Source: Hetaerina americana (lineage: Eukaryota > Arthropoda > Insecta > Odonata > Calopterygidae). From it: 64,000 bases of DNA. This document shows positions 35,158 through 64,000 of this stretch, in pieces (the first letter of the stretch is position 1; each line of letters starts with the position of its first letter). Under the pieces are notes generated by a model. The model was not told the origin of the DNA, searched no databases, and was given only the letters and a program-made list of their open reading frames with translations. A program made the translations under genes and the position numbers. The stretch covers positions 8,196,610 through 8,260,609 of the forward strand of contig JAKTNV010000014.1 in NCBI GenBank assembly GCA_022747635.1, written 5' to 3'.

Positions 35158-35159
35158 TA

Positions 35160-36030: not shown

Positions 36031-36044
36031 TATTGTTATACATA

Positions 36045-36225
<181 letters not shown>

Positions 36226-36257
36226 CGAAATCCCGCCAAACGGCGAATAAATACTCA

Positions 36258-36540
<283 letters not shown>

Positions 36541-38904: not shown

Positions 38905-38982
38905 TATTCTAATTTAGAGCTCTAGTGTAAAATCCATGCACGTGAAGTATGGTGTAATTTGAGGGGAAGTAAATGATAAAAT

Positions 38983-40020: not shown

Positions 40021-41389
40021 GGCAGTTTTTTTTCAATAGGGTTAAATAAGCGAATTTATTAAAATTTGTCATTTACAATCGAATTATTTCCATTCAGATG
40101 AAAATTCAAATAATACTGAATGAGTAACCAGTATAGAAGTTTTGATGCTTAGAACCGTCATAAAAGTGGATTAAAATTGCAAATATGTGGAAAGATTCCA
40201 GCCATCGTCGCATCTTCTTTTTCCGCAACACCTCGAACCATCATGTTGTTTTCTGCCTTGGTTTGGTATGAACGTACTGAACTTCGCAACTAAAATTTAC
40301 ATTAGTGACCGTGAAAAATCATTAGCTTAATTTTCACTGACTAAAACTTGGAACAATTAAGATGCAGAGGAAATGGCATTTGAGAATAATAATGCAAGAC
40401 AGCAAATCCTCAAACTGACTACGACCGTCGTACGCCCAAGAAACCAGCTACTTACACACAGGCTTGAAAATAATGTTTCTTTAGAATGCTGTAATATGCA
40501 TCACTCTTATTTCTCAACTTCACAAAAGGGTCATTTAACCAGACAGATTAGTCGTCCTTCATGAAATATGCCAAGCGGATTAAGATTTTGTGAGCAAGCA
40601 GTTTGGAAAATTTTGTTTCCCGGCTCAAATTACCCCAAAGGAAAAAGTTATTTGGGCCATTCTTACATATGCAAACTGAAATTTGAAGTTTTCCCCCGGA
40701 AACGTATTACAACCTTCGCCTCTCCCATTATAAGTACGTATGTTTCGTTACCCGCCCGGAAAAAAAGATTCGAAAACCAAATAAAGATTTGCCCAAATTA
40801 TAACCAAATGAGCTAGTATCCGTCAAGTTAAATTTTATTTTGGGAATATCTTACAATTTTCGAGCAAAATTCATAATTAATAAACAAGACTACAAGGAAA
40901 AAACCAAGCTATGGTTTCTCAGTTTCCAATTAGAACCACCCGGCATAAAATATTCCATTTTAAAATCAGTTTATTAATATTCCTTTAATATGCATCAATA
41001 AAATTAGCTGTCAGTATAGTACCTCAACTCATAGACCTAACGATATCGAAAAAAAAATTCTATGTTCGAGGCCCATCAAAAATATCACTAGAATGGAGTA
41101 TGACAGATTTTTTTTTAGAAAGTCGAGGTACTAGATGAATACCGTGACTGTCGTACTCGCGAATCAAATGCTCGTACTTAGATACACGATTTCGTGACGG
41201 TTAAATATGATAAGATTACAACGCATACTTCAACAAAAATTCACCGCCACCACAAACAGTCCGTGAGTGAAAGATATCCGGTTGAATAAAAACGCGCAAC
41301 AAGCGCAACGAGACACCCTAACAAGTTTTGAGGGAACATTTTGCGCCGAGAAATCCTCCACCGTCGACGAAATTCATAACGAGGTGAGG
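40021..41389. other. No recognisable gene
   Basis: AT-rich non-coding sequence upstream of the promoter-like island. Confidence 0.5.
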
Positions 41390-42300
41390 ACCCGGGGAGG
41401 GTAAGACAGAACATAAAAAAATAGGGAGAGAGAAAAGCACTTATTTCATTTTTTTAATGGAAGAAACAAAGAATAGGAAAGGAGAGGGAGAAAAACACTT
41501 GATGATCCGAACGGCGAATCGAACCTCTTCGCTCGAACGGGGAAGAAAAAAGAACTAAGAGAGAAAGGGAGTGGGAGGAGAGAGGGAGTGTGAGAAAGGG
41601 CAAGAGGATGAGGATAGTAGGGTAGGCACGATAGAGAACACAAGGGAGATCACACCGACGCGTCTCCCATCCCTTCACCCTCTCCCCCGTCCGACGTACC
41701 CCTCCCCATCCTACTCTCTACCGCGCGCATGCCCGGAGCCCTCCCGTCCCGCCTTTCCTACCCTCGCACCCCCGCAACTCCCGCGGAGGGTTTTACGGAA
41801 CGCGGCACCGGGAGTGGGCGCGGGAGGAAGCTTTCCAGCGGGCCGAGGCGAAGGACGGATAACTGAGAGTTGACGCGGACGCTCGGTGGGAACAAGCCGA
41901 AAACTCACGAGCGGACGGACCGGCGCCTCCGCATATGGGAGTGCGCCCGATCGCCCGTCGAGAGTGACCGACCAAGCGGCGAGTCTTGGAAGGGGACGCC
42001 TCCTTCCCCCTTCGGTGGAGAGACGAGAACGCGGATACGACTCTACTCACACAGTTTCCATACTTTCTTCAGGACCACCTCGACCTAAAAGAGAAACACG
42101 CCTCCTCCCAAATTCTTTTTCTCTCGCCCATTTAGCCCTTCCGCCTCAATTCTCATCCCCACCACCACAACTCTCCCTTTTCCCCTCTAATCAATCGTCA
42201 GAAGTATTTCAAACTTATGAAAAATTGAGTTTCTTAGAAAAGAACGCTTCCGGTGATACCCTACAAGGAAAAAATTTCTTTTTGTCGCGGTAGTGGTCGT
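41390..42300 (+). promoter_or_regulatory. CpG/GC-rich island, probable promoter and 5' UTR
   Basis: A purine-rich run (41390-41640) and a pyrimidine-rich run (41640-41780) lead into 41780-42060, the densest stretch of CpG and G+C around here. A gradual return to AT-rich sequence follows. It lies about 500-800 bp upstream of the signal-peptide ATG at 42595. Several overlapping open frames are compositional. A transcription start inside 41800-42100 is plausible, but no TATA box or single initiator can be chosen by eye. Confidence 0.45.
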
Positions 42301-42594
42301 GTAGGTTAGTGGTCTTCCAATAGCAAAACTTCAAACTGCGGTGATCTGTTTTAACTGACTTCGATACTGTTTTCCCCATTCCATTAGAAGAAAAAACTAT
42401 CCTTAAATGAACTACAAGTTATTAAAAAATAGTTTATCTAATAAGTGACTACTTAGCATCAAGTGTTATTTGTACATAAAAAAAACAAGAAAGTGTGCCA
42501 AGAAAGTTTAACAAGTGTGAATCCTGCATGACCACTGATACACGGTGAGCTGTTTTCTCGATATAGAAGCTGCTTTGCGACAACAAACACGGCG

Positions 42595-42661
42595 ATGAAG
42601 AAGAATAAAGGAAAACTTGTCTCGCTTCTAGTAAGACTCACGACGCTACTCTCATTACTGG
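42595..42661 (+). CDS. First coding exon with signal peptide (partial gene)
   Basis: The ATG at 42595 (context GGCGATGA, G at -3) opens a 22-codon frame starting MKKNKGKLVSLL and ending in a leucine-rich run (RLTTLLSLL). The layout is a basic N-region followed by a hydrophobic core, as in a secretory signal peptide. After codon 22 and one base (G, 42661) comes GTAAGT (42662-42667), a consensus 5' splice site, giving a phase-1 intron. A short signal-peptide exon with a phase-1 intron is common in genes for secreted or membrane proteins, notably immunoglobulin-superfamily adhesion proteins with long first introns. The identity of the protein cannot be told, as no further exon was seen in the remaining 21 kb. 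The alternative is a chance ATG-hydrophobic-GTAAGT combination, but the upstream GC-rich island argues for a real gene start. Confidence 0.55.
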
Positions 42662-45600
42662 GTAAGTTTAAATCTGTTTTCCGATTTGTTTTAGGTTCAT
42701 CTGGAAAGGCCATTTCATAAACTACGCCATATCGTTAATCCTCGACTGTGTTTTTAATTAACGTGATACCTTGACTTGATTTAAAAATTGACTCAAGGGT
42801 AATATATAGTGACCTAGTTCAAATGATCTATTCCCGTATGCAACCGTATGATTACTCTAGATGAACCACATTCAATTTTTAATTGAACACATTTTTCATT
42901 GTTAATAACTACGTTTTTACATAAACCCAAGTGAAATATAATACGCAGAAGGAGCAACAAATTTCAACGATCAAAATAACATTTCATCAATTTCAATGAA
43001 GAAAACATCCATATGTTGATGTTCGTGCATTCGCTTTAAAACATATTCTCACGTAAATTAATGCTAAAAATATGTTAGATAAAGCTAATTTAATTTTTTG
43101 CTGTCACATATAAGCTTCATTACAAAAGTTTCGTATTTATCAAACTCGGAGAGCGATATAATAAATCAACGGCTCTTTTATAATGGATTGCGTATTGCCA
43201 CGTTAAATAAGAACTCTATCGGGAAGTGGTCTATGTCCTTGCATAACGGCCAGAAGTGCCACGAAATCGCTAGGGAAGCGATCGGCAGTAATCCCTAGGG
43301 AAACAAAATTGAGTCGCAGAGGCGTTGTTGGGAATCGACGCGTACGGTCATGTTTTTTTCAAAATGCATAAATGAGAGCGGCGAAAGGAGTCTGCGGGAA
43401 AAAAACCAGGGACGTGACGTGGGTTCAACATAGAGACAAAAGAACGCGACGCATAAAAATACGCTGCAATCAATAATCCAAAATAAAATGAATCCTTACG
43501 TAAATCACAAAAAAAGAACGTTAGGACATAAATGCCATGGCAACAGTTGGTGTGGGACGAACGTTCTCACCAATATTATAACTGATTGTGAAAAGGTAGT
43601 GCTTCACGGAATACAGGACCAATAAGGGTCATAGGAAGCACTGGATGATTCTCTTGAGTCACCCCACTCCTTCCCCCCCTCCCGATCGACCCCCACGGGC
43701 TATTATCCTTCCTCCTGCCTCTTGAACGCCTCTCCATCCCTTCTTCCATCTCATGCAACCCCTTAACCCCCCCCCCCTAACAATCGCCTTCTACACACAG
43801 ACTTCCCCATCCATGCATTCACATCACATGGTCATCAGGGTCCCGCAGCTGGAGTCGCGGAGACGTGTTCAAGTGTGGGAATGCAAGAAATCTCCCGAAG
43901 AGAGAAATCTGGCCGTTTTTAGCCCAGCCGGCCGCTGCTGATGTCCAAATCCATTAGGGCGAAGGGCGAGGGGAGGGGCACGATTTTATCGCCTCAAACA
44001 TTCTAATCACCAATTAATAACAAACCGAGTCATTAGCCCAGTGTGGCCGGCGCAAAGATTGGTAAAGCCATGGGTCTTTTCGGAGCCACGGAAGACTCGA
44101 AAGCATTGATACTATTAAGGGGTTTACGGTCGCCAATTAATGCAGACTCAAAATGTGCAGCACACACTCGAATATTTTTGGAATTCAACATTCTTCACTT
44201 CACAGAGACATTATTTTTCTCAAATTTAATCTATTTCTGATTCATTTCCTCGTGCAAATTGGGATGAACTTGGCAGTTGAATCGACGTATAAACTCGTCA
44301 ATTATTTCTCCATATCAACCTGACACGTTGTTATCACATTATAAACCTTAAGTGACTCAAAATTCGTCTCAGTTTTTGGATGAAAAGCATTTGATTTCTT
44401 TTGAGTCTACCTTTTTATTGCATCAATATGAAAATATTGACGATACGTATTCAAAAACTTTATTTGATACTACAAACAGTATCAACGTGAATTCCACTTG
44501 AATTTTCATTTATCCGTCAGTTATAAATCAAATAAATATAAGTATCAGTATACTAAGATTTCAACTTAAACTCCCCTCCTCATCTTGACCTATTCTTAGG
44601 TTATTTTAGGTTGTTATTTTTTTGATAATTTGATAAAGTGAATTTAAATCTATCGTAAGAGTGTGTTCAAGGTAACCAATTGATTAAAATGTTTAAAATG
44701 CCTCATCCGAAATGTTTCATAAAGTTAAACATCTATCAATTATTAGGAATATTTTTTGAACACTCCTAAGCTATTATTTTATGCAAGTCAATCAATTAAA
44801 AATCACCAGGAGACCTACAATTAAATGGATTTACTGGAATTGATTGCACTTATTATTTCTTTTTGATGGTGAAAGAAGTAATTTTAAAGAATTTATCTCG
44901 ACAAGCTCTGAAATGGCGAAGAAATTGTTTCCTTTTTTGAGAATCCACCCTTAGATATTTTCCAGTGCGACAATAATAAATTTATAATTTTTTTTAGAAT
45001 TATTGACGGCAATGTGCAATATTCTCACGTAATTTTCGAAAAACATTCTTTACCATTAGTGTACTTAATTATAAAAATGACATTTCGAACTTACTATTAT
45101 TTACACCTACCAACGGGAAGCAAAATTCAGATTTAGAATCCCTATTATAAGGGAATAAGAACTACATGACTTAACGAGTAACCACCTGAGGAATTTCTCA
45201 TTCCCACTGATATTCAACTTTCGATCAATTGGATGCGGCCATCAGGAAGTTTCCGAGTTGAAGACAACCTCTTAATCTCTTTCGGAAACCATGTTGAAAA
45301 CCTTTGGTGAGCGAGTTGATAGCGCTGGTAGTATTTGCGTCTCATCATAGAAAACTCTGCGAGAGCGCAGAAAATCTGTGTATACTTGTACTTCCAAAAT
45401 TAGGAAATATTTTAACCTTCACTTGTTCCGAGAAATATCCAAAAACAAGGCACTAATGCGGGAGATAGGGAGGTTTGAGGGAATTTTCCAGGCCTGAAAA
45501 ATTCCGAAGCTGCAATGTCGGCGTCTCTGACTCAAGAATTCAAAGTAGTGTAAAATATGCTTTACTAAAGTTATGAATGTAGCTTGTGAATGAGTACTTT

Positions 45601-46571
45601 GGAATGCACTGGAAACAAAGAACTTTTTGGCATTAGTAAAATATTCAGAGCATTAAGATGGTAGTATTCCGCATTCAGTTACATTGAAAACCTATTATCT
45701 ATCGAAAAAAGTGAATATTTAAAAGGGCTTTTAAATAATTTATTGAATATTAAATTTTGATGTCACATAAAACTATGGTAAAATTTCAGTTTCTTAACCC
45801 CAGAAGTTTCATCAATAAAAGGATCTAAGGTCGTAAAATAACTATTGCGTTTCGAATTACCTCCATACTCTAGCCTTCAACATCAACGACTATTTTCGGG
45901 TTCTTTTATATTTTGCCAAGTTAGGACCAACTTAAGAAACTTTCCTTCTCCAACAGTATTACGTGAGGGTAGTTTAACTGTCGTGCAAGTATGGTACCAG
46001 TAAGGAACCCGTCAAGGAACAGATTGTTTTTAAATGTGTAATATATTAAATGATTTGTCAATATTTCTATCAAAAGCTTCCAATCACCCCTATGGTTTTT
46101 AATTATCAATATGTAGATTCGATATAAAATATTTAGGTCATATATTTAGACCTGTCCATAGCGGATTACCTAGAAACGTAGAATATTGGGTGAAATAGAT
46201 GTCTCAAGTACGAATCGCTGGAGTTAAATAAAAATGCCCGTGCAGCTTCGGAAGGATAGGTTATAGAGGTCACGTCCAAGAGGCGTGATACAATAATTGG
46301 TGATCGCGATGTAAAACCACGGAGATAATACCAGCGGAAGAGTAAAGAGGGCAGCAATATGCGTAAACTAATTTTTGATAACCAGAGGCGTTTGCACGAC
46401 TACCAGTAACAAGTATTTCGCATAATTTTGCCAATGAAGTCCCCACGCATTGTATTTAACACAAATTAAAAGAAAAAAATGATCAGAATTAACACTTTAC
46501 ATGCAACCCTATCATCATATCCACACTAATATTATCCAGTGGACCCATGCGTATGAGTGCGTAGAGTTCAA
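42662..46571. other. Probable first intron; no exon seen
   Basis: AT-rich, with a pyrimidine-rich tract at 43640-43780. No open frame with flanking splice signals and recognisable protein similarity was found. Confidence 0.4.
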
Positions 46572-47456
46572 GGTCTGTCCAATAAATACTCGAACTGAGG
46601 CCTTAAAAACTATATTTTGTAAACTTTAGTCTACATTGATTTTGTGCCCTTCAAAGTTCTATCCATCCATTGGTATGTATTTATTGCACCAGCTTTTTCA
46701 CAGTTGAAAGCACCCTTCGAAGTCCTGGGCAGCTAGGCCCTTTAGTTTTCTTGTCGTTTCTTACTTTATTGTGTCCACATCTTCCCAGTGATGCCCCCTC
46801 TCCACATGTTTGCATTTTGGGAATAGGCAAGAGTCACAATGGGTGGGATCTAGTGAATAAGGAGGATGATCAAGGATGGTGATTGAATTTTTTGCCAGAA
46901 ATAGGCGGACAATCAATGCTGAATGTGCAGAATCATTGTCATGGTGTAGGATCCATCCATCACGTCCGGTTAAAACAGTGTCCCTTGTTGATTTTCCTGA
47001 TTCAGCACGTCAGCTATCATTCGGACTGTTTTTCGACGATCGATAAGGACAAAGCACCGCACACGATCAATGTTGTCGTCAACACAGGTGGTTGAAGGTC
47101 GTCCCAGCCTTGCATCACCCGTGGAGTCTTGTCGGCCATCTTTAAAACGCTTAATCCACTTGAAAATGGACGTTTTCTTCAGAGCATTATCACCGTAAAC
47201 AGCTGTCAACATTTCAGTAATTCCTTGATTACTTTTACCGCACTTTACTAAAAAACTTGATGTCGATTTATTTGCTCGGTGATTTTTTCAAATCCTATTT
47301 TCGATAGATAAGAACTGGCACCATACGCACAGCTCGACGATCCGCCAAGCGCAGACGGCTCATTGGGTCTCAGGCGACCAGCGTTGCTATGGGCGTGGAT
47401 AAAGTCCGCGTCATGGCCGCCAGACTGCACCTGTGCGCATATGCATCGGATAGACC
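46572..47456 (-). mobile_element. Degenerate mariner transposon
   Basis: Left end GGTCTGTCCAATAAATACTC and inverted right end GGTCTATCCGATGCATATGC match at about two thirds of positions, as old terminal inverted repeats. Length is about 885 bp, so some 400 bp is missing compared with a full element. Transposase blocks read on the minus strand. Confidence 0.7.
46640..47300 (-). pseudogene. mariner transposase relic, first catalytic block deleted
   Basis: Minus-strand blocks: KITEQINRHQVF, then after a frameshift NQGITEMLTAVYGDNALKKT and SIFKWIKRFKDGRQDSTGDA (first HTH), LGRPSTTCVDDNIDRVRCFV and DRRKTVRMIADVL (second HTH). Then, after another frameshift and a deletion, DGWILHHDNDSAHSALIVRL, FLAKNSITILDHPPYSLDPT and HCDSCLFPKCK. 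The aspartates of HHDN and HCD are separated by exactly 34 residues, the DD34D spacing of mariners. The region holding the first catalytic aspartate (GDESW-type block) is absent. The element lies in the probable first intron, antisense to the candidate gene. Confidence 0.85.
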
Positions 47457-48234
47457 ACGTACCGTACTGATTTTAACGCCCTACACTTAGTACTGAGCAC
47501 AACACAACAGTTATGTGTGATTTACGTTAGCCGTCTTAATAATGGATAATGGATGAAAAATAGGCATGGAAAGGTCAAAATTAGGCTGGCACTAAGCAGG
47601 GAAAGTAAGAACTTAAGGACAGCCGTAGATAAAGTAACTAAGGACTTTACCAAAGGACTAACGAATGAATGAAATCCAAACATTACTGGATTAGAGTAAA
47701 GTCGTAATAAATTCTTTTTGCAAGCCGATTTGAATGTACCAAATGAAAACTGATTAACCGGCAAAGAATGTAGACAGAAAAGAATTGAATCGATACAGTG
47801 ACTCGGTAACAAGAAGAGAGAACAAACAAGGGAGGACGTTCCGATGTTTTCGGCTTCTCGTGAGCGAGAGGCAAAGACCGCAGAACGACGGCAAGTCACA
47901 CGGAAGCGGACTGACATAAATTTATTTCCGTCAGACGCGTTCAGTTCGAACATGAGAATTAGTGGCGGCTCATGTGCCTGGTGACACCTGTGCCTAACGA
48001 TAAAATCTTTGCTTTTTTTTAACTCTCTAGAGTACCTCGTCAGTCGAAAAATATGCACATGAAATGTTGATACTGGTTCGACGGACGGAGAATGAAACTC
48101 AATCATTAATATTTGCTATGCCAGCATTCATTAAAAGGAGTTAAACAAACATGGTGATTGGGCAACGAATTTTTAGTGGTATAAGAAACTGGCAAAATAA
48201 GTAAAGATGAGACGAAATGAGTGGCACAAAATTT
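47457..48234. other. Unassigned; no gene supported
   Basis: The 194-codon minus-strand frame (47522-48106) has no recognised domain and irregular composition. It may be part of the LINE copy that follows, or chance. Confidence 0.35.
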
Positions 48235-48600
48235 TTTATATGGACCGTGGCGCAGCATGGATGTATAATCTGATGCTTGAGACGAGTTGATGAGCGTAGA
48301 CGGAAATCTTTGGAGATCTAGGTGTCAAATAGAATGAAAAAATGAAGAAAATAATTTGGAAAGAAAGGAGAACAAACGCTGATGTTGTTAACATGCTTGG
48401 CAAATGGAGGAACTTGCCAGGGAAAATTAAAATAAGGTAGAAAAAGGGCGTGGAGTAAATATTGAAAGATAATTGTGTATTGAAGACCGTGATAGAAGGG
48501 AGAATGTTGAGGGAAGCGGAAGGCAAGAGGAAGGCAGGAAATAGGCTTTGTAGACAGCATTAAGGCAGGCAGAAGTTATGCAGAAACGGCGAATAAAATA
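48235..48600 (+). pseudogene. LINE C-terminal relic (endonuclease-RT type)
   Basis: Plus-strand blocks: a degraded LYG-W opening, VDERRRKSLEI, then IWKERRTNADVVNMLGKWRN, followed after small frame changes by LKDNCVLKTVIEGRMLREAE and GKRKAGNRL. This matches the C-terminal tail of arthropod endonuclease-RT LINEs (ExRTNxxVLxxVxERRxLL...GHxLRxDxLLKTVIEGRMLxKRxRGRxR). The catalytic part is missing. The minus-strand frames across the same bases are shadows. Confidence 0.75.
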
Positions 48601-51004
48601 ATATATACAAACAATAGGATTTTCTCGTGATACGTACGTAGTTGAGTTTTCAAGGAGTCTGAGCCCTACCTTGTTAGATAGAATAGCTTCGAATGCATGA
48701 AGATCACAAGTAATAATGTGGCCAACTGGATTATCATAATCCATACAAATTCATTAAACGCTCTTATTTATGGCGTATTGAAATAAAGAGTGACTCCATA
48801 TTTGCGAAATTAGACGATATTAGTTTTTTGGCCCCCGGTGGCGGTGTACCGTCTCCACCTACAAACGGGGGCTGTTCCTCGCTTGAATACATGTAGTTTT
48901 TCCTCCATTTAAAGTTTACAAGGGTATTTAAATTCTTCTGTTATGAACATCAAACACGTCAAAAAGTCCCACTTAGGGAATATTAAGGCTATTTTAAGAT
49001 CGATACTTAATAAATATATGAAATTACCTTCCTGCCATTGACATTTTGTTCATAAATGGAATACAAAACATGAGAAATAACGTTTAGCTTGAATTATTCC
49101 ATAAAGTTTTAATGTAGGATGATATATGTCAATGTTAAACAAATATTTAATCACCTTTGATGTGAAATAGAAACCATCTGGGACTACACACAAGACTGAT
49201 AATCATACAGACACTTCAGGCTCTCTTCCTCATAATCCGTCATTTCCGTATGTGAAAGCATTGCAGAGAAGAAACTCGTAGATTTCCTTTACACGGTCTT
49301 TGAGACAAGATGCTGCACTAATTAGTTCTGTATTCCCCTAAGGGAATCCAATAGCTACGATAAAGGGAGAATCGGCATTTCTTTATTATGCAACAATTCC
49401 ATGAATATTTCCGTAGCTCTGAAAATCTTACATGAGCCTAACTGTAATTCTTTGTCCTAAGCATCTGTCAAAGGGACGAATCAGTAGGAAAACAGTGGAT
49501 TATGTTTCATTTAAGATTTTCTTATGATTTCAACTCGTCATACGCGAATTTCATTGCGCCGGAAGCATATTTATTGTTCCGCTAAAGAATTCCAATTCAA
49601 ATATGATCATTTACTGCAGAAAACAGACTCGTACGATATTTAAAAAAAACAATACTTACCATTAATTTAATGAGTGATTCCGGGTGCTCGACTGAAACAT
49701 TTAGCGGGACGTATTCTGCCGACTGCTGGAGAAGGGGTCCATTTTTCAGCGAAGAATATAGTGAATCAGCAATGGAGAGCACTCTCTGAAATAAAAATAT
49801 TCTACGAAAATGATTTGACGCAGGGTATTATTATGAAGTATACTTACTTCATGTTCAGGCTTGCATAAATAAACAAGGATGCACTCTACGGGGCCACAAA
49901 ATTGACAAGGAGCCCATTAGCGCACAAATATAGAATGGAATTTAAAAAAAACCAATGGGAATACGGTAATCGCCCAAATAAAGGTTAAGCTGAATGAAAA
50001 TCCAAATAATGGGTATGTAAAGTCAATATATTAGCATCACCCTCCAACCCCGCTGCGCAGAGGGGACTTAAGCAGTCTGAATACCGACGAGAAGTGATTA
50101 ACAAGACTAGAAAAGGGACTAGTAGGGAGCGGAGTTTGGCAAGTAATATAAGGCGAGAGAGTAATATGTAACCTACTCAATGGGGCTTTATTTCAAAGTC
50201 TCTGGAAATGACATTTTCCAGGATTAAAAACATTGAAATTTTACACAGTTCACATCCGAGAACTCGACTAAGATCGAACACATCCTTCGTATATTAAAAT
50301 TGTCGTCTTGTGTAAATTTGTGCTGTTTTCCATTATATTTACACCGGTTTAGACCATCAGAATTTAAATGTGTTAAAATCATTGGTTATTATTTAGGAAG
50401 CTACTCGGGTCGGAGTAAATTTAAAAATGGAGGCACTTGCATCTACGTATGTTTGATATGGTATTTACTTCATATCTGTAAAATTTTCAAACATTGCTGT
50501 AATTGGAAAAAATGCTGAATTTTCAATCGCTCGAATACCAAAGCATTAATTGACTCTCGTCTATCGGTACAGATTCCCTGACTGAAATTTTTATACTTTT
50601 ATGCACACTCTCCGTTTGAAATGAGGTGATTCAATTTCTAAGAGCAAATTATATATACTCTAGGAATGTAGGATAGAAATAGGATAATTTTCACTGATGG
50701 GATTATCATCAAAGATACTTAAAACTTCATGGTCGAAGGAACTTCAAGTTCAAGTACTAACATAAGAATTCAACTATTTCGAAATGAGGATTTTTATAAG
50801 TAAATATCCATCTCCACCAAAGTTTATAGAAAGAGCGTTTTATTTTCACTACGAATAATTTTGTACTGACGAACATTACTTAATTACTGGCAATAGTCTG
50901 TACTAAAAAGTACGCTTGTACTTTCAAGCCCTGCATACCACGAAATAAAATATCTATAAATTCCTTACTTTATATGATCATAACTCATAATTAAATTCTG
51001 CATA
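48601..51004. other. No recognisable gene
   Basis: AT-rich non-coding sequence. A small GC-rich hairpin-like patch at 48832-48880 is unassigned. Confidence 0.5.
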
Positions 51005-51250
51005 CTTCCTTTTCCACCCTGCTTACCAGCATTCTCTCATCTACTGCTATCCTGGGTACCCCATTGTCTTTTTCAGTATCTCCTGCAACCACTTTTCCTT
51101 CCTTCTTCGGATGCCCCCCATCAACTCTCTCCCCCCCTAACACTCCCAAAACACTTTTCTTTTCCTTTCCATTTCACTTATTTCTATTCTACTCCCCATC
51201 CACATCTCAAAAGCCACGATTCTACTCATGCACTCTTGTTTCAGCGATCA
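51005..51250 (-). pseudogene. LINE C-terminal relic
   Basis: The minus strand reads RIVAFEMWMGSRIEISEMER and, across frameshifts, VFWEC and ELMGGIRRRKEKWLQEI. This parallels the relics at 6740 and 57610 (AFEMW...RRxxxI...ER...LMxxIxxRRxxWxGH). On the plus strand it appears as a pyrimidine-rich tract, so the plus-strand frame 51064-51333 is a shadow. Confidence 0.55.
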
Positions 51251-52459
51251 AATTTCCGATTCATTCAAAACTACGCCCTAAATTTAACTTTAAGTATAAA
51301 CTGAATATTTACTTATACTTTGACTTGGATTAATAATTAGTAACAATTATTCAAGTTTCTGATCGACGATCAAAAACCAGCATATCCATGCAAGCACATA
51401 TGGGTGTTAACTTTTCAGTTTAGTAATATGCCGGTAAGCAACCACTAGTTGACTCGGAAACATCCCCTTATTTAACAACTTCTGTCTGGTATAAAAGTAT
51501 ATCTCAGAGGATGCGAATAAAGGTTGCAGAAAAACACGTTACTTGCATGAGGTATATCCAAGATGTCAGAATAATCCTCAACTTAAAAAGCCTAAAGGTC
51601 CACATAATGGACCAATGGAAAATAAATATTGAATGGAATGAAATATTTCCTTATCGGTACAAAAGGGCATACTTTTTAAGTATTTTTTTATATTAAAAAA
51701 AAACTCCCTCCTTCTCACATCTTCAAAGTTCACATATTCAAAAGATGAGCAAAGCAGTTCATACAACCGTACTGCAAAGCACCAACTTAACATCTCAGCT
51801 CATCCAAAACCAGTGACCATAACTCTTTTCCAATGAAAAGAGTATATTTGTGGGATTTCATTGATAAATAATTTAGAGAGGCAACGACTCAAGCAGTTTT
51901 CATAACACAGCTTTCCACATCTGTTTGAATTATTATTGAGATATGGTGATTAGTGGTATGGTGAAGTACCTGTATGTGTTCTGAATTCTGATGCGAACGA
52001 GTTCTTTTTTGGGTTTGGCCTTTTTACATGATCACATCACTTTTATGTTGACTTCAATGATAGATCTCTTCTACCAGAATTATCACCTTTAAATTAAATC
52101 TTTTAAATTGAGTCCGAAGTGCATTTCTCCTGGGCTCTAATGCATGTCTTTTGACATACTTGCTTGAAAGAGATTTCCTTCTGTTAAATTCAATCCTACA
52201 TGCGAGCAACGCCTACAGTTGAAATTCACAACTTTCTGTGCATCACGCGCTCTCCGATATAATCCAAATGGAGGAAGGAACATGCATATACGATTAATCC
52301 CAACACGAGAGAGGAATCGAACGCACACGCTAATCCCTTTTAAAGTTTCCGAACGAACTCAGAGCGTCAGGTTTACGATAAATTTTCTGCGAGCGCGACC
52401 AATCCCATATCTGTGCAATGTGCGACCTTAAAAAAGATTAAATATGACCGCAGACCTGG
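51251..52459. other. No recognisable gene
   Basis: AT-rich non-coding sequence. Confidence 0.5.
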
Positions 52460-53620
52460 ATTCTCCACTTTTACGTTACGTGTGATCGCGAGGCGACGGC
52501 GCGGTGAAAATATTTTTGTAATTGTAGGGCATTAGAGCAGAAAGAACTGCGGAATGAGGGAGCGTTGGCTGTGCATTACAATCGAACGAAAAAGAAGCGG
52601 CAATGCAGCGAGAGGGGTAACAGGCAAGATCGGGGAGAGTGTGGGATAACGTGTAAAAAAATTCTCGTCGTGTGCTACGGTGCCCTCGGGACGGGGAGGG
52701 GAGTGGTCAGTCATGTACGCCCGTCTCGGGGAAAGCGAGGTCCGGCTCTTGGGGATGATGGCTCCGGCAAGCTGCGAAAACGGGGCGGACGGGTCGACGG
52801 TGCGGTCGGTGGTAGAATGGTTTTCGGTGATTATTGAAGGGGAATCATTTGGGATAGCCACCGCTGCTGCGGACGGACACGCCGGGGTTCTGGACTGGGA
52901 TATTGAGGAATGTTGTGAGCGAGATGTGGGAGGTTAAAAAGGGTTGAGAGTATGAGGGAGGGGGAGTTAGGGAGGCGCTACAGGGGGTGAGGTGAGGTGT
53001 GGGAGAGAGGGAACGAGTGGGGGGAAGCAGAGAAACATGGTCCGACGCTCAATTAGTAATTGGGGCGGAAATCAAACAGTTGGCGAGGGTTTGGTTGGAG
53101 TTTGGCCGCGAAATGAGGGCGATGGGGCGAATAGAGGCGAGTGAGGAAGAGGCAGAGATGATGTAGTTGTGGGGGAGGATGTTTGGTGTCGGTCATATGG
53201 GCGGAGGAGAGTAGAGGGTTTTTTGGGAAGGGTGGGGGCACGGTATGGAGAGTGTGGACTGGGGGCGTGAGTTCTGTGTACAGGTGAATTGGCCGGGCGA
53301 GGAAGGAAAGCAAGGAGGAGAGCGAGCGAGGGTGGGGGGAGGGTGGGAGGAAGGGTTGGGGGGACGAACCTGGAGGTGGAGATATGGAGGCTATCATCTC
53401 GTTCGAATCGGGCGGATCTCTCGGGCACAGACGAAATAAATCATTGAATTCAGCAAAACCATACGGAACGAAGAGGTAGGGAGGAAAGGATGGGAAATAA
53501 CTGACGACCGCTTCGCGTGCTGCCCCCTCGCTAATGAGTGGAAAACATTTCGGACGAAAACGAAAAAGATGGAGGGAGGGAAAGAGGGAGAGGCCTACGA
53601 GAATTTCGTAAATGATTCCT
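52460..53620. other. Second large GC-rich, G-biased island
   Basis: About 1.1 kb with high G+C, many CpGs in its first half (52480-52900) and a G-rich plus strand in the second half. Frames on both strands, such as 52680-52937 plus and 53053-53397 minus, follow from composition. It could be an internal promoter, an alternative first exon region, or a GC-rich repeat. No repeat copy was matched and no convincing ATG-donor pair was found. Confidence 0.35.
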
Positions 53621-54539
53621 GTCGTTCAAAATTCGATTTTTGTCGCTTTCAAAGAATAACAGCCGATTTCAAAACAATAAAGCAATTAAAATGTAAGAAA
53701 GAATCCTGATATTTTATATATTCAACGAAACCTGTATTCACCTGTGATGGGCCAACATCAAATTACAGTTATTATTACAATTACAACTATCTACAGTAAA
53801 TGCTTTAAAATTTAATTTAATTGCATAGGAAGATTAAACAGGGATTTTTAAAGTTTAAAAAAATTTGATATCAAAAACATTCATAACTCTTCCCACAATT
53901 TAGTCTTCCGATGGGATGTATTATGCCAGAAGTACTTTGCTTAAAGTAAGAGATTTTGTAGTTGAAACTTAATAATTTCAGTACTGGACTAGAAAATTTA
54001 GACAAATAAACGAATTAACTAAAACTTAGCTTTCCCGAAATATTTCATAGAGCAAAATAAACTATTGGCTAATGTTTTCTAAACTCAATCGTTAATTACC
54101 ACAATGTATTATCATTTTACAGTAAACTGTTGGCAGCACTATCAGAATTCAAAACTTAATTGAGAAAACGGAAAGCACTGGATAAATTTATATTAATCTG
54201 AGAAATACTCCTCTAAAGTTTCCGTCACAGCACCAAAAACATGCTGCAGTAGATAGTTTGCACTTCAAACATGACTTATGTTAATGCCTTTTGTAATACT
54301 AGATTAATCATTACTAAATTGTATTCAACACAATAAAAGGCAATGCGAAATGTGTCTTATGAATATAATCCATTAGAAAATCCATTCCTAATATACAATC
54401 CAATCCATTATTACGAATTCCAAAAAAATGATTAGTTGTATTTAAATGCATGCTCTTCCACTAACCTTATGTGTTTTGCTTTAATAACCCATTCAATCGG
54501 AATTACCTTATTAGTGCCCTGTTCATCTGTTTTTAAGTT
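53621..54539. other. No recognisable gene
   Basis: AT-rich non-coding sequence. Confidence 0.5.
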
Positions 54540-54955
54540 TCCCTTTCAGTCCCTCGTCCCTCTCCGCGGGGGCAAATTCCTGCTACCTGCAACGTTCAAC
54601 GTTGGGTCGCATTCCCTGCCTTTTAGAGACTCTTTGGGGGTAGAGTGTTTCGTGGTGCATTTTCATGTGGTGTTTCAATTTCTTGCTTGTTGTGTCCTGG
54701 CTTCCGTGTTGTAGGATGGCTTTCGTGCTGCATCATGGGGTGCAGTTTTTTAGTTGTTTTGCGGTATAGTATGTGTTTGCATGAGTATTGGATGAAGGGA
54801 TTTTTGCATGAGTGTGTGCGCTACTGTGGGTGTAATTTTCCGTGTTGTTTTTATTTTGGCATGTGGTATTTTTCCTTTTTACGGTTGGTGACCTAACACC
54901 CCCCGCCACACGCCTGTGCGGCGGCTTGCGGGGTATTATGTAGATGTAGATTCCT
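54540..54955 (+). repeat. LINE 3' UTR and tail
   Basis: A GT-rich stretch without homology that I recognise leads to ACCCCCCGCCACACGCC...GGCGGCTTGCGGGG, a stem-loop-like block, and then TATTATGTAGATGTAGAT. CCGCCACAC...GGCTTGCGGGGTAT followed by a GTAGAT tail is the kind of 3' end seen on abundant arthropod non-LTR retrotransposons. The Jockey/CR1-like relic at 16.7 kb could be the same family, but that link is inference. Confidence 0.5.
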
Positions 54956-55700
54956 AAATACTTTCATTAAAAACTATTGACTCAAAATGGTCCGAGGTTT
55001 TACGCCATCAACAGAACTTAGTCTATTTGTAAGGCGTTCCGTTCCTAGCGTCGTCGTGATTACGTACGGTCTTCAAATCGCAGCACTTGAAACACTCTAA
55101 ATTCTCCATGACAAAACAAACACTCACTGAGATGTATATGTTTCTCAATAGTGTAAGTCACTTGCTTAAAATGAGAAGAAATATAATCTGCAATCGACTT
55201 GTTTCTTGCTCAGCAATTACTTCGATATTTTGAGGCATTATTTTTCGTCAGCAAGTGAACAGAAAAGTTCCAAATTGTCGTAAAAATCCGTTAAATTAGT
55301 TGGAGCTTTATCTTTAACCATTATCTATTCAAAGTATGATTTTCAATATACAAGTTGGATGACATTTCGGCAAAAGTGGAGCGGAATATTTCGGGTATTT
55401 AGTTTATAATCCAGATGTAATCCGAAAATTTACTTTAGAAATACGTGAAACATCAAGTATACTAGTATCGCAAGAATTTACCCATATTTATGAGATCCTG
55501 GTATAATCAAAACACATAAAAATTCTATATTTAAGGGTAGTTAGTAATCATTTTGCGAATGGTACGCAGAAAATTCAGTCAAAGCAGTGTAAAAATCTAT
55601 TTTCATGAGTTTTTCAATCGGATAAAATCTAAAAATTGCCATTTGTAATAAATGGTCACGCATACTATCAGCTACTTAAAGTTTAAACACCAATTGATAT
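54956..55700. other. No recognisable gene
   Basis: AT-rich non-coding sequence. Confidence 0.5.
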
Positions 55701-55821
55701 TGAAAATAAACAACTAAGCTTTTCCTCATAGAAAGTTTTATACGTGGAAAAACCAAGTTGTTTATTTCAATTTCGACATGGAGATTTTCCACCAAGTCGC
55801 ACAAGAAACTGTTTTATTTAA
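55701..55821. repeat. Imperfect hairpin plus shared 3' motif
   Basis: TGAAAATAAACAACT (55701) pairs with AGTTGTTTATTTCA (55756-55769); the inner bases (CATAGAAAGTTTTATACGTGG) also pair partly. Directly after it, 55786-55820 repeats the motif found at 1297-1330. Family unknown. Confidence 0.55.
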
Positions 55822-57609
55822 TAACCATTTTTAATGTATTGCGATGGTTTTTTCTTTAATGGTTTCTTTGACACGGTTGGCTTATTTCAAATCGCCATTT
55901 ACGCAAGTCCTTGAGTTAGTTTTTATTCCATTACTAGAACCGAACATAAAGTGGTCAACGAGGCGAAAGGTAGATTTAAATGGCATTATAATTAACCATT
56001 GACTCATTGAACTTCATTTTTTCATCAGCTGATAGCCTAGTTTTACATTTTGAGTCTATATTTCACCATTTTCTATGAAGCAAATTTGTTTCAACATATC
56101 ATAAGACCCTTAATTCGCTAATTGCCAAATAATTTCTTATTATTCACTAAACATCGTTTTGATTAATAATTAGGAAGCAGCGTAGATGGATAATGGCTTT
56201 CAAGGAGCCTTTGTTCCTGTTTTCCATTCTAAAAAAATTTTTTCCACATGTTTAAAAATAATTAGAATATGTGACGCGTTTGCATTATTTTTTCTGTCAC
56301 GTAAACTAACTAATAATGACATAAGAGAAGGGAGAGAGAGGAAAATCAATGTACTGAATCCAGTTGATTGGTTCAACCGGAGCGTACAAACGAAGACAAT
56401 CAAATTTTCTCTCACACTATTTGTTTCATCAGTATCGGAATTTGACGTAAAATGTAATTCATTAAGTCCATGAAAACAAGAACCGTCAAAAGAAGAAGTT
56501 ATTACATCAAAATCTGAATTAGGGGCCAAAAAGAAGAGATTTCAAAAACACTTTTATCGAAGACTGAGAAGGGTTAAGAGAATTTCTTTCAAGGGAAACA
56601 AAAACCAGATGTTAAGTTATTATTAATTAATTTGAGTATTTTTTTAAATGAAGAATAAATTCTTAGATTAAACTGTTGAGTCAAAAAACTGCGTTTACTA
56701 GTGATCCATCTCAAGAAATGACTTTCACTTTGCTAACCGTCTTCTTTAGCCGTCCCCGTTGTCATCATATCGCTGGAGTATAATGTCATTTTCACCTGCC
56801 GTTAAGTTATCTACCATCTGAATGTTTTCAGCTACATAATTCTTCTTTCATCTTTCAATAGTATGAACTCTATCCAGTTTGTCCTCTTGATGAACGAAAT
56901 GTGTTCTCTCTTTCCCGCTGCTCATTTCCTATCTCATTAATAAGGCTGTTGTGGCATTACATGTTCTCCAGTCTTTTACAAAGCATGGTATTTTTAACTG
57001 TTTCATTAGTTATATTTCAATTACAACAGCGTGAACTATGGGTACATTTCATAGGATAACTATAACGTTTTGAATCCTAGCTATAAGAAAGCAGTCTTAA
57101 AAATTATTTCAAATTTAACGTAACTACATGAATATGTGAAAATAGTTTCTTCTTTCAGGTCTTGAAAATCTTATTAAAAAAACTTCTTTTATAAGGGATG
57201 TATTATGGATAACGGAATTATAGCAGTATCGGAAAATATTAAAAAACATTACAAAGGCAGAAAATTACGATGAAATGGATCTAAGTCAACTAAGTTCTTA
57301 GGTGAGAAAGCAGTAGACCAATCATCCTTTAATTTCAGTTAGTTTTCCCCAATCTTTCAATGGCAACAGATTCAATACTTCCCGAGAACTTTTGAGAATA
57401 GTCCTCACCACAAGGAAATATGTTCCATAGACATTTTTTAAATAACCTCAATTTTAGATGGAGGAACCGGATGTAGTTCGTCATCATCCCTCTCTCCAGT
57501 TGATTATCAATCTACAGGCGTCATAGGAAAACACTAGTCAAACCAGAAACAGTAATTGAAACGATACTTAAATCGACATTAACTAGCAGCAAATATTACT
57601 AGAATAGAC
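55822..57609. other. No recognisable gene
   Basis: AT-rich. The overlapping open frames at 56186-56529 on both strands have no recognisable domain or splice context. Confidence 0.45.
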
Positions 57610-57960
57610 TTATTAAACATTTTCATGAAAGTTACATTCAGAGTCTGCTTTTCTACGGATGTGAGAAATTGGCGATAGAAGCAATAGGAGTAGCATAAGG
57701 TTTGGAGGATATTTAAAATAGATGTAACGAAAGTGTGATGGAAAGAAAATGGAAAGACGGAGTAACAAAATCAGAATGACTTTCAAAGGTGAATGAGGAG
57801 GGAGCCAAATGGATGATGCTAACAAGAAGAGGAGGGGTAATTTTACTGGCTATACCCTGAGGCACGATATTATATTAAAGATTATTATAATTGGAAACAC
57901 GAAGGGAAAGAATTACAGCGATCTATGGTGAGCTCCAAGAAGGAATTAATGGAAAATGCC
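57610..57960 (+). pseudogene. LINE C-terminal relic
   Basis: Plus-strand blocks: SLLFYGCEKLAIEAIG, MERKWKDGVTKSE, LSKVNEEGAKWMMLTRRGG and, in a shifted frame, NFTGYTLRHDIILKIIIIGN followed by TKGK. The order matches the LINE C-terminal tail (LLYGxExW...IKWxDxVTNEEVLxxVNExxxLWxxLxRRRGxxIGHxLRHDxLLKxIIxGxxxGKR). Frameshifts and stops make it dead. The minus-strand frame 57613-57825 is its shadow. Confidence 0.75.
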
Positions 57961-58351
57961 AGTTCAGGGAGGAATGGGAGTCTGTAGAGATAGGCAGAGA
58001 ACATAAGTGTTTTGACTACATACCAACCCTCGGATTGATAATTCACGATGATGAGTCAATAATATTTTAAATCGTAAATAAGTCTTTTCACGGAGCATTC
58101 CGAAAGAGGCATGGGACAAGAGAGCTTTCAATACTTCGATTCAATCCAACTAGAATATTCACAAGAAAGACTCCATCGAGAAACTTTATGAGTACCAATT
58201 AAATTAAACGCTAAGGTAAATCACCAATTTATTTGCATGCATTTAAAAGAAACCATAAAAGGTTTTCATTGTCAACATGAACTGTAATGGCCAAATCATT
58301 GCCACAATACAGTTAAACACCTTAAACAAACTTTTTCACTATTTATATATT
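57961..58351. other. No recognisable gene
   Basis: May contain the remaining LINE 3' sequence; nothing firm. Confidence 0.35.
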
Positions 58352-58573
58352 TGCCCCGGTCCTGGTGGCGGTTAAGGTAAAGATCTTGCCTGCCAACCCA
58401 GAGGACGCGGGTTCGATTCCTGCTTAGATGCGTTTTCCCCCACCCAGGGCATGATTGCTCGTTATTGACTTCAATGTTACGTTTATGCTTAGGGTTATGT
58501 GGAAGAAGGGACTATCGTATTGTCTCTCCCAAATCTCGTTCCAATAAAAAAGACGTTAAATAAATAAATAAAA
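58352..58573 (+). repeat. tRNA-derived SINE, family B, full-length
   Basis: The tRNA-like head GGTCCTGGTGGCGGTTAAGG (A-box region) is followed by GGACGCGGGTTCGATTCCTG (intact B box GGTTCGATTCC). The body is about 110 bp (CACCCAGGGCATGATTGC; GGGACTATCGTATTGTCTC). The tail is GACGTTAAATAAATAAATAA. The head is shared with the degraded copy at 13618. Confidence 0.8.
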
Positions 58574-61500
58574 GGAATACGCACAAAAACGACATGAGTT
58601 TCAATTTTCAACGTACAACGAGTACTGGAGATTGATAAAACACGAAGTTCTTCAGAAATATTTCATGTTTATGAACTTACAGAAGAATTAGTAACAAGAA
58701 AGAGTCCTAAAAAGTTGCATATTGCGATTTTAATTCATTTGAAGAACTAAAAAAGTTTTACCAAAATAAAATAAAGACATAGAGTGAGGGTTCAGTAAAA
58801 TTTTTCCAACCCCCCAGTCAAAAAAAATAAACAAAAATTTTGCAATTTAGAAGCTCCAATGGATAAAATCTAACGTGGAGTTTAGAAAAAGAAATTTGAG
58901 TAATTCAAGCCCAAATAATTTTCCAATATTGCAATTGGCCAAAAATAAATTAGTACATTCCTCATTCCATTTAATTTTAGGCATGAGTAGTATTTATTGA
59001 AAGAATTGATTTCGGATTTTCGGTTTAATTAAAGATTGCCTCAAAATAAAAATAAATCAAGTTTTGTGAAAATAAAACGATTCAATTTTGAAAGGACGCT
59101 ACAAATACATTTATACACAAATTTTTACGTTTTCATTAAACAATTAAATATGCGTAGATTTGTATAAACATAGAACAATTTTATACTTTGACTCTATCTA
59201 CGAGAGAAAAATTAAATGTTTGTACAGAGATATGGAAAAGAGGAATTTCTGTGAGTAGATTTGCAAAAAGTTCCTAAAACAAAAGTCAGATGTCTTAAAA
59301 GATTAAAAAAATCTTTAAGAGCCATAAATAGTGAAGGAAAAACACGATTTGGAAGTGTCAACGCTTAAAAATACCTACATTTTAAAGCATAAAAAGATAA
59401 GTGCAATAGAAAAACGATAAATATTTTTACTACATTTTTCGTTAATACTATAAAATAACAACTTTAAGAGATGAACCCACCAAAAGCATTTGAGTGCACA
59501 CATTTCAGATAAGGTTTTTGATGTTATCAAACTCACTTGCATACATTACATTAGTTATCTCTGTCGCATTAAAGCAAAAAAATATAAAAGAGGAAGTCTC
59601 CGCTGACCTTCAGATAATTTCAAAACACACTTCCCTTAAGAATCAAATATACTGAAAACAAATAATTTTCAAAAGACCGTATTTGGATCAAAATCACTGA
59701 TACCTTGGCTTATTATGACCGTTCATCACCCCTCAATTGAATTTCTATAAACAGTAAAAGTAGGAGAGACGATGAAATTTTGATAAGAGTTTGGGAAATT
59801 TAGCAAATATTATAATCATAACAACGAGTTATTTCGACCGTGAGGTCGTAGTCAGAGCATACGATTTCCCAAGAGTAAACTTAGATACAAGCAAGGTAGC
59901 AGGCGATCAGTCGTAATTATCCTGCTATAATAGATATGCCCCAAAGCAAGGGTAATAAAACCTTGTAAGCAAGGGCAGAGAAACTCTGGCAAGCGAATCA
60001 ATCTTATCTGGCTTGCATTAATAAAGGTCTAAGTTAATCAACATAAACATTCCATTTTTCTTTTCCTAAATTAAGCTTATATTTTCCGCCCGATTTTCAC
60101 AATAATTTAACATTTGCGGTCGGGCAAAAGCTTCCCTTTTGCATACACCACCGTTACATCGCCCCATGATCTCATTTGTGTTCCCGGTTTACATTGGCCC
60201 GATTTGGATGTAGCTTTATAAAATGTGGTCAGGTGAGGAACTCATGGTTCCTCTGCGCTCTGTCGAACACAAAATTATTATGAAGATAAACAGTACGAGT
60301 ATTTCATTCAGAACCATTGACAAAAATCTTATTTGCAAGGACTAAATTAATGACCAATTCAATCATTTCCTAGACGATGCAACTTTAACGCGTAATTGTC
60401 ACTTGCTGTGAAATCTAGTCAAAATATTGACCATAGCTAACAACAGAAAGTGTTTCTACAAGTCGTGGTACCTTATTTAAAGCAATTTTCAGCAATTTCG
60501 TTTTAAAACAGATGATCGAAACAGCTAAACGAAACTATTTAAATAAAAAGATGATCGAAAATTGGAACGAACCCACTGCGCATTCGTCCATATATTTTCC
60601 CAACACATAAAAAGTGCATGGAATCGAGAAGAATATTCTTACTTTTTTCAAAATGTATGTAATATGCATTCTTAGGAAAATTTATGATAGAACGCTAACG
60701 GTAGGAAAGGAATACATCTCAACAAATTGCAGCTTTTGCTTATGAAGTCTGCCAAATGGAAAAGGTTTAAGCGTGTTAAGGGCAAGGGGTCCAATATATG
60801 ACAATATTTCCAACAATTAATTTAGTTATAATAATTTGATATATTTTAAGACTGAAACATCCAATAATATAATAATAATAAAAGTATATACCAAAATTTT
60901 AAGAAAAAAATTAATAATCAATGGACAATATTTCTATTTATTGGTTCATATGTACTGTTTTTCGCAATATATTAATATTACAGCGACATGGTTTACCAAA
61001 AACATAAACTCTACTGATTGTCATGGAGAATCTCTTCACGAAAGCAGTTTAAGGTGGTGAGGTATCTTTATTTTATTAATTATATCAGTCATCAAATTCC
61101 ATTCGCGAATGTTACTTTTTGGAATAGTGTGCGCATCGTAATGTGGATTTCTGTTTTAATTTTGAGGAAACGCGTCAATAAAGTCCTGTGTTACGGAATG
61201 AAAACCAAAATAATCATAAAGATGCGAAATGTGGAAAAAGGAATTAATTTTCCAAACCATGAAAATGAAACATTTCCAGAGTAACGGCTGAAACTGTGAA
61301 TTTTGTCTCAAAATTACTACATTTCCGTGACTCTTCCTAGCCCTTCAATCCATCATGAACCCACGGGTTCGAGATCATGGAAGAGCCCAAGGGGCATTAT
61401 TTCTCTGGCGCTAAGTATTGAGGAGCATCCATACATTTTATGATTTTTCTGCGCTTCAAAACTCCGGATTTCCGTTTAAAAACGGTGTTTACCTTCTGGT

Positions 61501-62364
61501 ATAATACTCTAGCTCCTCATAGTATCCATGTTCGGAACACAAGGATATATATATATATGACGAAAAATACCTCGAGCCTCCCGCGGTCTCCCCTGTGCTC
61601 GAATGCCTTTAAATGACCATTATACTTACTCGTAATCTGCCATCACGCGGCTGTGTCACTCGCAAACCTCCTGTTCACATGAGCCGAGGCATCCCCCCGG
61701 AAGCATCACGGGCACGAGGGATGGCGCAAATCCCACTCGATAACCAATTTAATCATTGATAATCACTGAAGCGTAGGGAGAGGTGGAAGTGTATCGTAGG
61801 ACAAAACCGCAGCGAAAACATTTTCCTATAAGCGGATCCCCACAACCATCCCTCTCTCACCGCCCCACTACCCACCATATTGCAAATTCCAGCCAACTGA
61901 AGGCCTTGCCGAAGGCTTCTGGCTCCTTCGCCTCCTCCCAATCTCCCTGAAGACTTTGCGTTCGCTTCCTTCAGCCCGTCCCCCAAATGCCATCGAGTCG
62001 GGGAAATGATTGCATCTTCTTCCACAGGCCTGATAATCTCATCTCCTTTCTGTCTGAGCGTGAAACCACTTTCCTTCTCGTCCCTATTATCTTAAGGAAT
62101 ACTAGTTCGACACCGTTCGCTCTCCGATACAATTTCACACTTGCATTCTAGGAAAATCCACTTATCTTTAAGTTGGCTGAAGTTGTGAGAGCTTTTATTT
62201 TACACTACAATGGTTATGACTCTTTTGAACGCAAATTGGGGCTTGGATGCGCGGAATAAGTCCGTGGTACTTCTATTAAATTAAAGTCATGAAAAAAATA
62301 CACACACACATTAACAAACATAAACAAATACAAATTTAGGCTGAGATTCCCAGATAGGCGGTGA

Positions 62365-62369
<5 letters not shown>
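58574..62369. other. No recognisable gene
   Basis: Mostly AT-rich. The patches at 60110-60260 and 61550-62070 are somewhat richer in G+C but show no coding similarity. A short TATATA run lies at 61546-61559. Confidence 0.45.
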
Positions 62370-62440
<71 letters not shown>

Positions 62441-62446
62441 TACATA
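62370..62446. repeat. (TA)n microsatellite
   Basis: About 75 bases of nearly uninterrupted TA followed by ATACATACACACACA. The Y/I frame across it is an artefact. Confidence 0.95.
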
Positions 62447-63206
62447 CACACACATTTATACTTAATTAAATGCAAACCATGATTTCTCTACGCGAACTAG
62501 AGAAGCTGTTTGTAACAGGAGAGTCAATAGGCAACATTTTGAACTATTAAAATGCAATTTATAACTCGACAGTAATCATAATTCAGACATGCTGCAGTCA
62601 CGTAATTTGTGCTTGTTTTTATTAGCAGTCCATAAAATTTAGTTCTAACAATTATTGTCGTAGCATTTCCATTTGAATTCTTTTTGTGAATTATTTCGTA
62701 TTAAAAAAGCGTAATCTTATAAGAATATTACACTTTCAGAATTAAATTAAAGTAGAATTAAAAGATGCAAAGAATCGCAAATTAATTTGATGCATAAATT
62801 ACCTAAAAATTGAACTAAATTTTGGCTACCTAAAATTCTGCTTATCTTATCCGTAGTTAAAATGTTTTGTTTACTCCGCCGGTCCCAAAAGTCCCAAGTA
62901 GTGACGCGAAACGAAAGATGCAAGCCCCCAGCGGTCCAGCCTGTCCATTACGGGAATTGAAAGAGCGTGCTGAAATATGCAAATCAAAATCAAAGGACTC
63001 CCACTATCGATCCAGCGCAATTGACTGTGAATATGCTTCAGGAGTGAACGATAACAAAATGACGAATAAAACCCATACGCTTAGTCAGAGCCGATAGTTT
63101 CTCGGGATTCTTCAAAGTTATTATTAATCCGAAATCCATATGGAACATTCAAAATAATACTAAATTTTTCACCTCTACTTCATCGCATGGAATCTTACTG
63201 ACATAA
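62447..63206. other. No recognisable gene
   Basis: The 76-codon frame at 62867-63097 is not obviously repetitive but has no domain, no signal peptide and no clear flanking splice sites. An AT-rich flank surrounds it. Confidence 0.4.
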
Positions 63207-63480
63207 GGCGGGTCTGAGAAGTATCCGACCTTTGCTTGTTTAATATTTTTTTTATTTTGAGGGTTTTGTGACTTTTGGATGTTCCCAAAATTGAAAATGG
63301 CGCTCAAAGGAAAGCGGTCCGACGAAATCGAGACAATTTAGAGTAATACGACGCGTGAGTAGAAGGCCATTCCAAAATCTGCGCTCGAGGACTGCTTTGA
63401 GATGTAGAAACACCGCTGGGAGCTTGTTGTTCAATCAAATGGGGACAATTTTGAAAGATATCACGGCCCAGGTGACGAAG
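63207..63480 (+). pseudogene. mariner relic: 5' end joined to transposase C-terminus
   Basis: GCGGGTCTGAGAAGTATCCG (63208) has the form of a mariner terminal repeat. Only about 60 bases later, the plus strand reads FWMFPKLKMALKGKRSDEIE, the block just after the third catalytic residue (DFxLFPKLKxxLKGxRF). Next comes SNTTRE, then IPKSALEDCFEM, a stop, and KHRWELVVQSNGDNFERY, the C-terminus (RWxKCVxSxGDYFEGD). The whole N-terminal domain and all catalytic aspartates are deleted. No matching right-hand repeat was found before 63650. The minus-strand frames here are shadows. Confidence 0.72.
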
Positions 63481-63839
63481 ATTAGCACCAATGCGGAGAT
63501 ATGAACGCAGATGGGGCAGCTTTCGGACCCACCTCGTACTTAAAATCATCAGGAGGTGGAAACCAACCGACGAGAACACGTAAGTTCGGTTGACAAGAAT
63601 CATCATTACAAATCTGTCCGTTGCCCTACACGTATGTCAATAAATCATGAATTATATTAAAAGCATGGAATAGAAAAACCCAGTTCTGATTCAAGATTTT
63701 GGATTAACCCTGGAACTAAAAGGTGCTACATTTGTAATATTTTGTCAATATGGCAGAAAATAATATATAGCTCCACACTGCATAATTAAATAGCTCATTC
63801 GTGATTTCTGTACAATTTATCTCTCTTGTTTCCATTCAT

Positions 63840-64000
63840 AATGGCATTTGTTTTCTTCCCTCTACTTTACATGCCCAGAACTATCCCTTCCATTGCAATA
63901 CGTATGTAGTATCCCACTGACTCTCAGGATCTCTTGCATCCACTTGTTTTGTCTTCCTGCAATTTCCCCGAAGCCGACTTTCTTTACCTAGAAAACCCAG
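63840..64000 (-). pseudogene. Possible LINE C-terminal fragment at window edge
   Basis: On the minus strand, RQNKWMQEILR lies in the position of the RRxKWLQEI block seen in the relic at 51005-51250. The two share the DNA words ATCTC(C/T)TGCA(A/T)CCACTT on the plus strand. It is cut by the end of the window, so the call is tentative. Confidence 0.35.

Follow-up and report, generated by a model that had tools for sequence, protein, structure and literature searches.

At one place in the genome of the calopterygid damselfly Hetaerina americana a start codon, a short hydrophobic leader and a consensus splice donor lie in direct succession, which raises the question of whether they open a real gene, and which one, or have come together by chance. 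The place lies in the window, by which the whole analysed stretch of 64,000 nucleotides is meant (C444:8196610-8260609, in a searched genome of 1.63 Gb). Sequence comparison supports, with a probability of about 0.96, the reading that positions 42595-42661 are the first coding exon of a Beaten path (Beat) family gene; the exon is very probably real and would carry most of a secretion signal. The features concerned are the following.

42595..42661, + strand: coding exon 1 of the probable Beat-family gene (residues 1-22 and the first base of codon 23)
42662..42667, + strand: 5' splice donor GTAAGT, intron phase 1; the protein results when it is joined to the acceptor at C444:8631060
42662..64000, + strand: window part of intron 1 by the reconstruction of protein P0001 (21,339 of 391,789 bp), running on to C444:8631059

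Start codon, leader and splice donor

From the ATG at 42595 run 22 full codons, MKKNKGKLVSLLVRLTTLLSLL, followed by a single base G and then by GTAAGT, exactly as the original prediction had read a 22-codon leader with a phase-1 donor. On the contig the 67 coding bases occupy C444:8239204-8239270, and they encode the signal peptide's n-region and the greater part of its h-region. The donor stands in the context TGG|GTAAGT, and 32 of the 6437 GT sites on both window strands score at least as high on a donor weight matrix. The prediction had also held this to be the only place where start, leader, donor and an upstream GC-rich island coincide, and for the first three a scan at exon 1's own values agrees: it returns one site on the + strand of the window and none on the − strand, and neither strand of the 200 kb that follow has one. 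The thresholds of the scan are post hoc, namely exon 1's own donor score and 8-residue hydrophobicity, a net N-terminal charge of at least 2, 12-45 codons and any phase, and looser ones bring up a second + strand site in the window, at 57809-57927 and in phase 2. By chance, as estimated from 6.4 Mb of first-order Markov sequence, a 64 kb strand is expected to contain 0.11 such sites, or 0.01 when phase 1 is required. Taken alone, the leader and donor scan is only suggestive of a real exon.

Upstream of the start codon the sequence contains two further features, the first of which had been predicted as a GC-rich island and coincides with the CpG maximum of the window (54 CpG, the highest count among 500-base windows stepped by 100).

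41501..42100 (approximate), no strand assigned: GC- and CpG-rich island by CpG count, a probable promoter or 5' untranslated region
42528..42548, + strand: short upstream open reading frame of 6 codons and a stop, in the presumed 5' leader

Several acceptor-like sites are also present upstream of the ATG, at 42073-42388, and an upstream non-coding exon is possible for them.

The public protein and the six-exon gene model

When the leader is used as a query against about 5.8 billion proteins, only one protein among 36 candidates is reached at E<=10, and it is a record of 372 residues named "uncharacterized protein [Hetaerina americana]", here P0001. The match is weak by itself, being 9 residues long by BLASTP with an E of 0.019, and gains its weight from the reverse comparison, in which P0001 residues 1-23 are identical to the product of exon 1 (tblastn E 1.2e-6) and other parts of the protein are placed, in a search of the whole genome, on the + strand of C444. 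Six exons on that strand, joined at GT-AG junctions, reproduce P0001 letter for letter. The exons beyond the window are listed here.

C444:8631060-8631268, + strand: exon 2, with a phase-1 start, coding for the end of the signal peptide and the beginning of Ig domain 1
C444:8804290-8804425, + strand: exon 3, by the P0001 reconstruction
C444:8806913-8807046, + strand: exon 4, by the P0001 reconstruction
C444:8809961-8810453, + strand: exon 5, by the P0001 reconstruction
C444:8814693-8814772, + strand: exon 6, ending in TGA and coding for the hydrophobic C-terminus

Exons 3-5 together encode the rest of the first Ig domain, the second Ig domain and a linker. The coding sequence of 1,119 bp is spread over a coding span of 575,569 bp, with introns 1-5 of 391,789, 173,021, 2,487, 2,914 and 4,239 bp. 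Intron 1 is in phase 1 and ends at the acceptor CTTCTTTTTCCCCAG|GTTTAG; it splits the signal peptide, MKKNKGKLVSLLVRLTTLLSLLG|LAQG, and across the junction the frame is the right one for a signal peptide whose cleavage site is of the AQG|L type, in line with the general rule for such sites. Exon 1 goes beyond chance because the full protein is matched and the six exons reconstruct it exactly.

The closest protein that is not P0001 itself, among the best 120 of the 472 homologues found at E<=0.001, is LOC124157390 of Ischnura elegans (P0002), which has 76% identity over the full length and, like P0001, four cysteines and a similar hydrophobic C-terminus. Both proteins have the same start, and their leaders align without gaps, with 15 of 23 residues identical, in the same place before GLRNVRLSMPPA; beyond the leader, 98 of 117 residues are identical at 24-140 and 88 of 117 at 141-257. 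The prediction had asked whether the ATG is lost in relatives, and at the protein level, in Ischnura elegans only, start and leader are kept. This conservation is independent support for the view that exon 1 is translated, as judged from sequence.

These results bear on two other readings of the exon. One is that the leader and donor are coincidental and were erroneously taken up by the public protein; coincidence alone is not absurd, given the post hoc scan and its expected rate, the public protein could be a prediction, and the joining of a 392-kb intron to merely 67 coding bases is a link open to gene-predictor error. Against it stand the ungapped Ischnura leader before the same residues and the in-frame signal peptide with its cleavage site that the junction produces, so that this explanation is hardly credible. 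The other reading accepts exon 1 and takes it as one of several alternative first exons, with other promoters and leaders in the 392-kb intron used as much or more. An intron of this length, of whose 392 kb about 221 have been read, has room for further promoters; moreover, several proteins of Anabrus simplex (P0003, P0004, P0008, P0012) have different N-termini and similar Ig parts, although they may be separate paralogs. On the other hand, the best 120 of the 472 homologues include no Hetaerina protein besides P0001, whose cluster holds one member, the Ischnura leader is conserved in the same position, and a second leader and donor site at exon 1's values is absent from the next 200 kb, which together make alternative first exons improbable.

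Intron 1 and its contents

The donor in the window and an acceptor 391,789 bp downstream give the exact protein, and therefore 42662-64000 belongs to intron 1 and the mariner remnant lying there is intronic. The original prediction had proposed that the gene codes for a secreted or adhesion protein and has a very long first intron, most of the right third of the window being intron and the transposon relics there intronic, and it is borne out on each of these points: the downstream acceptor is in phase 1, and the protein appears to be of an adhesion or guidance type.

46973..47287, − strand: mariner-type transposase remnant (HTH_48) in intron 1, Pfam HTH_48 at 31.8 bits with a cut-off of 24.1

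Nothing but this − strand HTH_48 is found by Pfam in any of the six frames of 42660-52662 or of the three + frames of 33000-42601; among seven single open reading frames searched in the same way, two contain HTH_48 and five give no match. A tblastn search detects no further exon of P0001 within the window or in the 200 kb after it, and neither a tRNA nor an Rfam match at gathering score is present in the window. No exon stands out convincingly when the first 221 kb of intron 1 are examined with a home-made exon scorer, whose best + strand score is 25.2 against 66.8 on the reverse strand; the scorer is weak, having been trained on only 11,352 bases in five frames, two of which are probably sense and antisense of the same stretch, and it came out empty-handed over a stretch beyond which exon 2 in fact lies. 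Consensus-like recursive-splice sites over 221 kb number three on the + strand and five on the − strand, none with a good acceptor score. Searches of the genome with two Pfam domains did not lead to the gene either: of the 149 I-set matches, obtained by scoring 150 of 648 candidates, none lies on C444, and the 62 with Neur_chan_LBD include two on C444, at 15.28-15.29 Mb, which do not indicate the gene.

Mobile elements are seen elsewhere on the contig as well. A nearly identical pair of mariner-type fragments lies at 12851-13255 (+ strand) in the window and at C444:8414720-8415124 (218111-218515 when counted on from the window); the two differ at two residues by eye, the first matches HTH_48, and the pair suggests a recently active family. 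Long open reading frames inside intron 1, at about 149199-152171 counted on from the window (C444:8345808-8348780), look by eye like an endonuclease and reverse transcriptase retroelement. Long introns are not confined to the Beat gene on C444, because the two halves of the first Ig domain match at places 217 and 111 kb apart in two of 14 paralogs.

The encoded protein

P0001 contains Pfam Ig_3, Ig_2 and ig matches above cut-off in the first half of its ectodomain, while the second Ig domain remains below cut-off (C2-set_2, 18.3 vs 21). In the AlphaFold2 model, computed from 20 sequences (mean pLDDT 76, pTM 0.57), residues 2-24 form an N-terminal helix, the strands of two Ig-like domains are modelled with confidence and the linker with low confidence, and there is a helix at the C-terminus. 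The C-terminal hydrophobic helix, at residues 357-371, is followed by no cytoplasmic tail, and cysteines are found only at positions 49, 116, 163 and 239.

Membership of the Beat family

Beats are described in PMC5578738 as proteins with two Ig domains that occur in secreted and in membrane-bound forms, and Drosophila has 14 of them. P0001 resembles established Beats over its ectodomain: Drosophila Beat-Vc (PDB 9nsf) is aligned at residues 31-251 (5e-28) and Drosophila Beat-Vb (PDB 9np7) at residues 28-181 (1.1e-22). It has a hydrophobic leader followed by two Ig domains, both of which are spanned by the Beat-Vc alignment. The gene can with confidence be assigned to the Beat family from its sequence. 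The nearest relatives of solved structure are Beat-V and not Beat-I proteins; Beat-Vc and Beat-Vb belong to another Beat cluster than Beat-I, and their Drosophila partner is given as Side-VI in PMC5578738. Five of the best 120 of the 472 homologues carry a Beat name, and every one of these is Beat-Ia (3e-68 to 3e-66).

Sixteen further loci of H. americana have a Beat-like first Ig exon (on C693, C804, C915, C1, C2, C1026 and at C444:6.86 Mb); the weakest is C2:18.27 Mb, at 30.9 bits, and the loci at C693:4.17 and 5.68 Mb hardly differ in exons 2-4. A pyrimidine-rich phase-1 acceptor stands near a GLRxV-like start in all 16 of these paralogous Ig1 exons, an observation on the acceptor side only, and acceptor-like sites of other phases are also seen in 8 of the 16. 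This hints that the Beat genes of this species may commonly have a phase-1 intron ahead of their first Ig exon.

Relation to Beat-Ia

On its place within the family the evidence is mixed, and the gene can be called the counterpart of Beat-Ia only as a likely assignment. Drosophila Beat-Ia and its orthologues (P0054, P0059, P0079) show 47-49% identity over 64-70% of P0001, and the two have in common a signal peptide directly before LRxVR and then two Ig domains; in Drosophila Beat-Ia the signal peptide comprises aa 1-26 and Side is bound via the first Ig domain, according to PMC9743010. P0001 differs in being shorter than Drosophila Beat-Ia and in lacking its Cys-rich C-terminal region.

This last difference also speaks for a competing assignment, under which the gene is not the Beat-Ia counterpart but another Beat paralog, such as one left by an older duplication, and has a partner different from Side. 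When D. pseudoobscura Beat-Ia (P0059) is compared with the genome by exon 2 alone, three loci score above the gene (C693:77.88 Mb with 84.7 bits, C915:8.65 Mb with 81.6 and C804:37.73 Mb with 80.1, vs 76.7), and none of the five Beat-Ia-named proteins ranks the P0001 gene first by that exon. Among 119 insect homologues the best exon-2 match is the C693:77.88 Mb locus for 50 and the P0001 gene for 38, and the remaining 31 are distributed over six further loci, including C915 with 20. The order is reversed when P0059 matches at E<=0.001 are summed over exons, as grouped by position by the analyst: the P0001 gene is then best with 76.7+44.6+42.8+28.4 = 192.5, and the runner-up locus reaches 81.6+32.6+30.5 = 144.7. 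A tree likewise unites P0001 with all five proteins named Beat-Ia in a group of 116 leaves (support 0.80) that includes none of the seven Hetaerina paralogs entered; it was built from 156 columns and 126 of 127 sequences (P0017 was removed because of its gaps), with seven of the 16 paralogs and with other Drosophila Beats left out, and its homologue set, gathered with P0001 as query, is biased. Inside that group the neighbours of P0001 are other odonate, mayfly, katydid and cockroach proteins, not Beat-Ia. Considering both sides, a different paralog is the less probable assignment, yet one that deserves to be taken seriously, and correspondence to Beat-Ia is retained as the likely one.

Implications for Beat genes in Hetaerina americana

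If the gene works as its sequence suggests, transcription would presumably start in or near the CpG-rich island, and intron 1 would be spliced out of a primary transcript that measures 575 kb or more. The leader would direct the nascent chain co-translationally into the secretory pathway and would be cut off before LRNVRL, and the C-terminal hydrophobic segment would hold the protein at the neuron surface by a GPI or short membrane anchor. There the first Ig domain would bind a Sidestep-family partner on target tissue in axon guidance, as for Drosophila Beat-Ia and Side. A far more speculative proposal, which we regard as quite improbable, is that the 392-kb intron 1 and the 173-kb intron 2 act as a timer, with about 565 kb between start codon and exon 3. 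If this were true, the guidance receptor would appear hours after the gene is switched on, and an intron length maintained by transposons would set when axons respond to a Sidestep-type partner.

Exon 1 is itself ordinary, of a known kind of gene and already within a public protein record. What is added here is a Beat-family, axon-guidance-type identity, assigned by comparison, for a protein named only "uncharacterized", together with an exact gene model; and a true first exon of 67 bases, 392 kb from the remaining gene, would thus be detectable by reading raw sequence.
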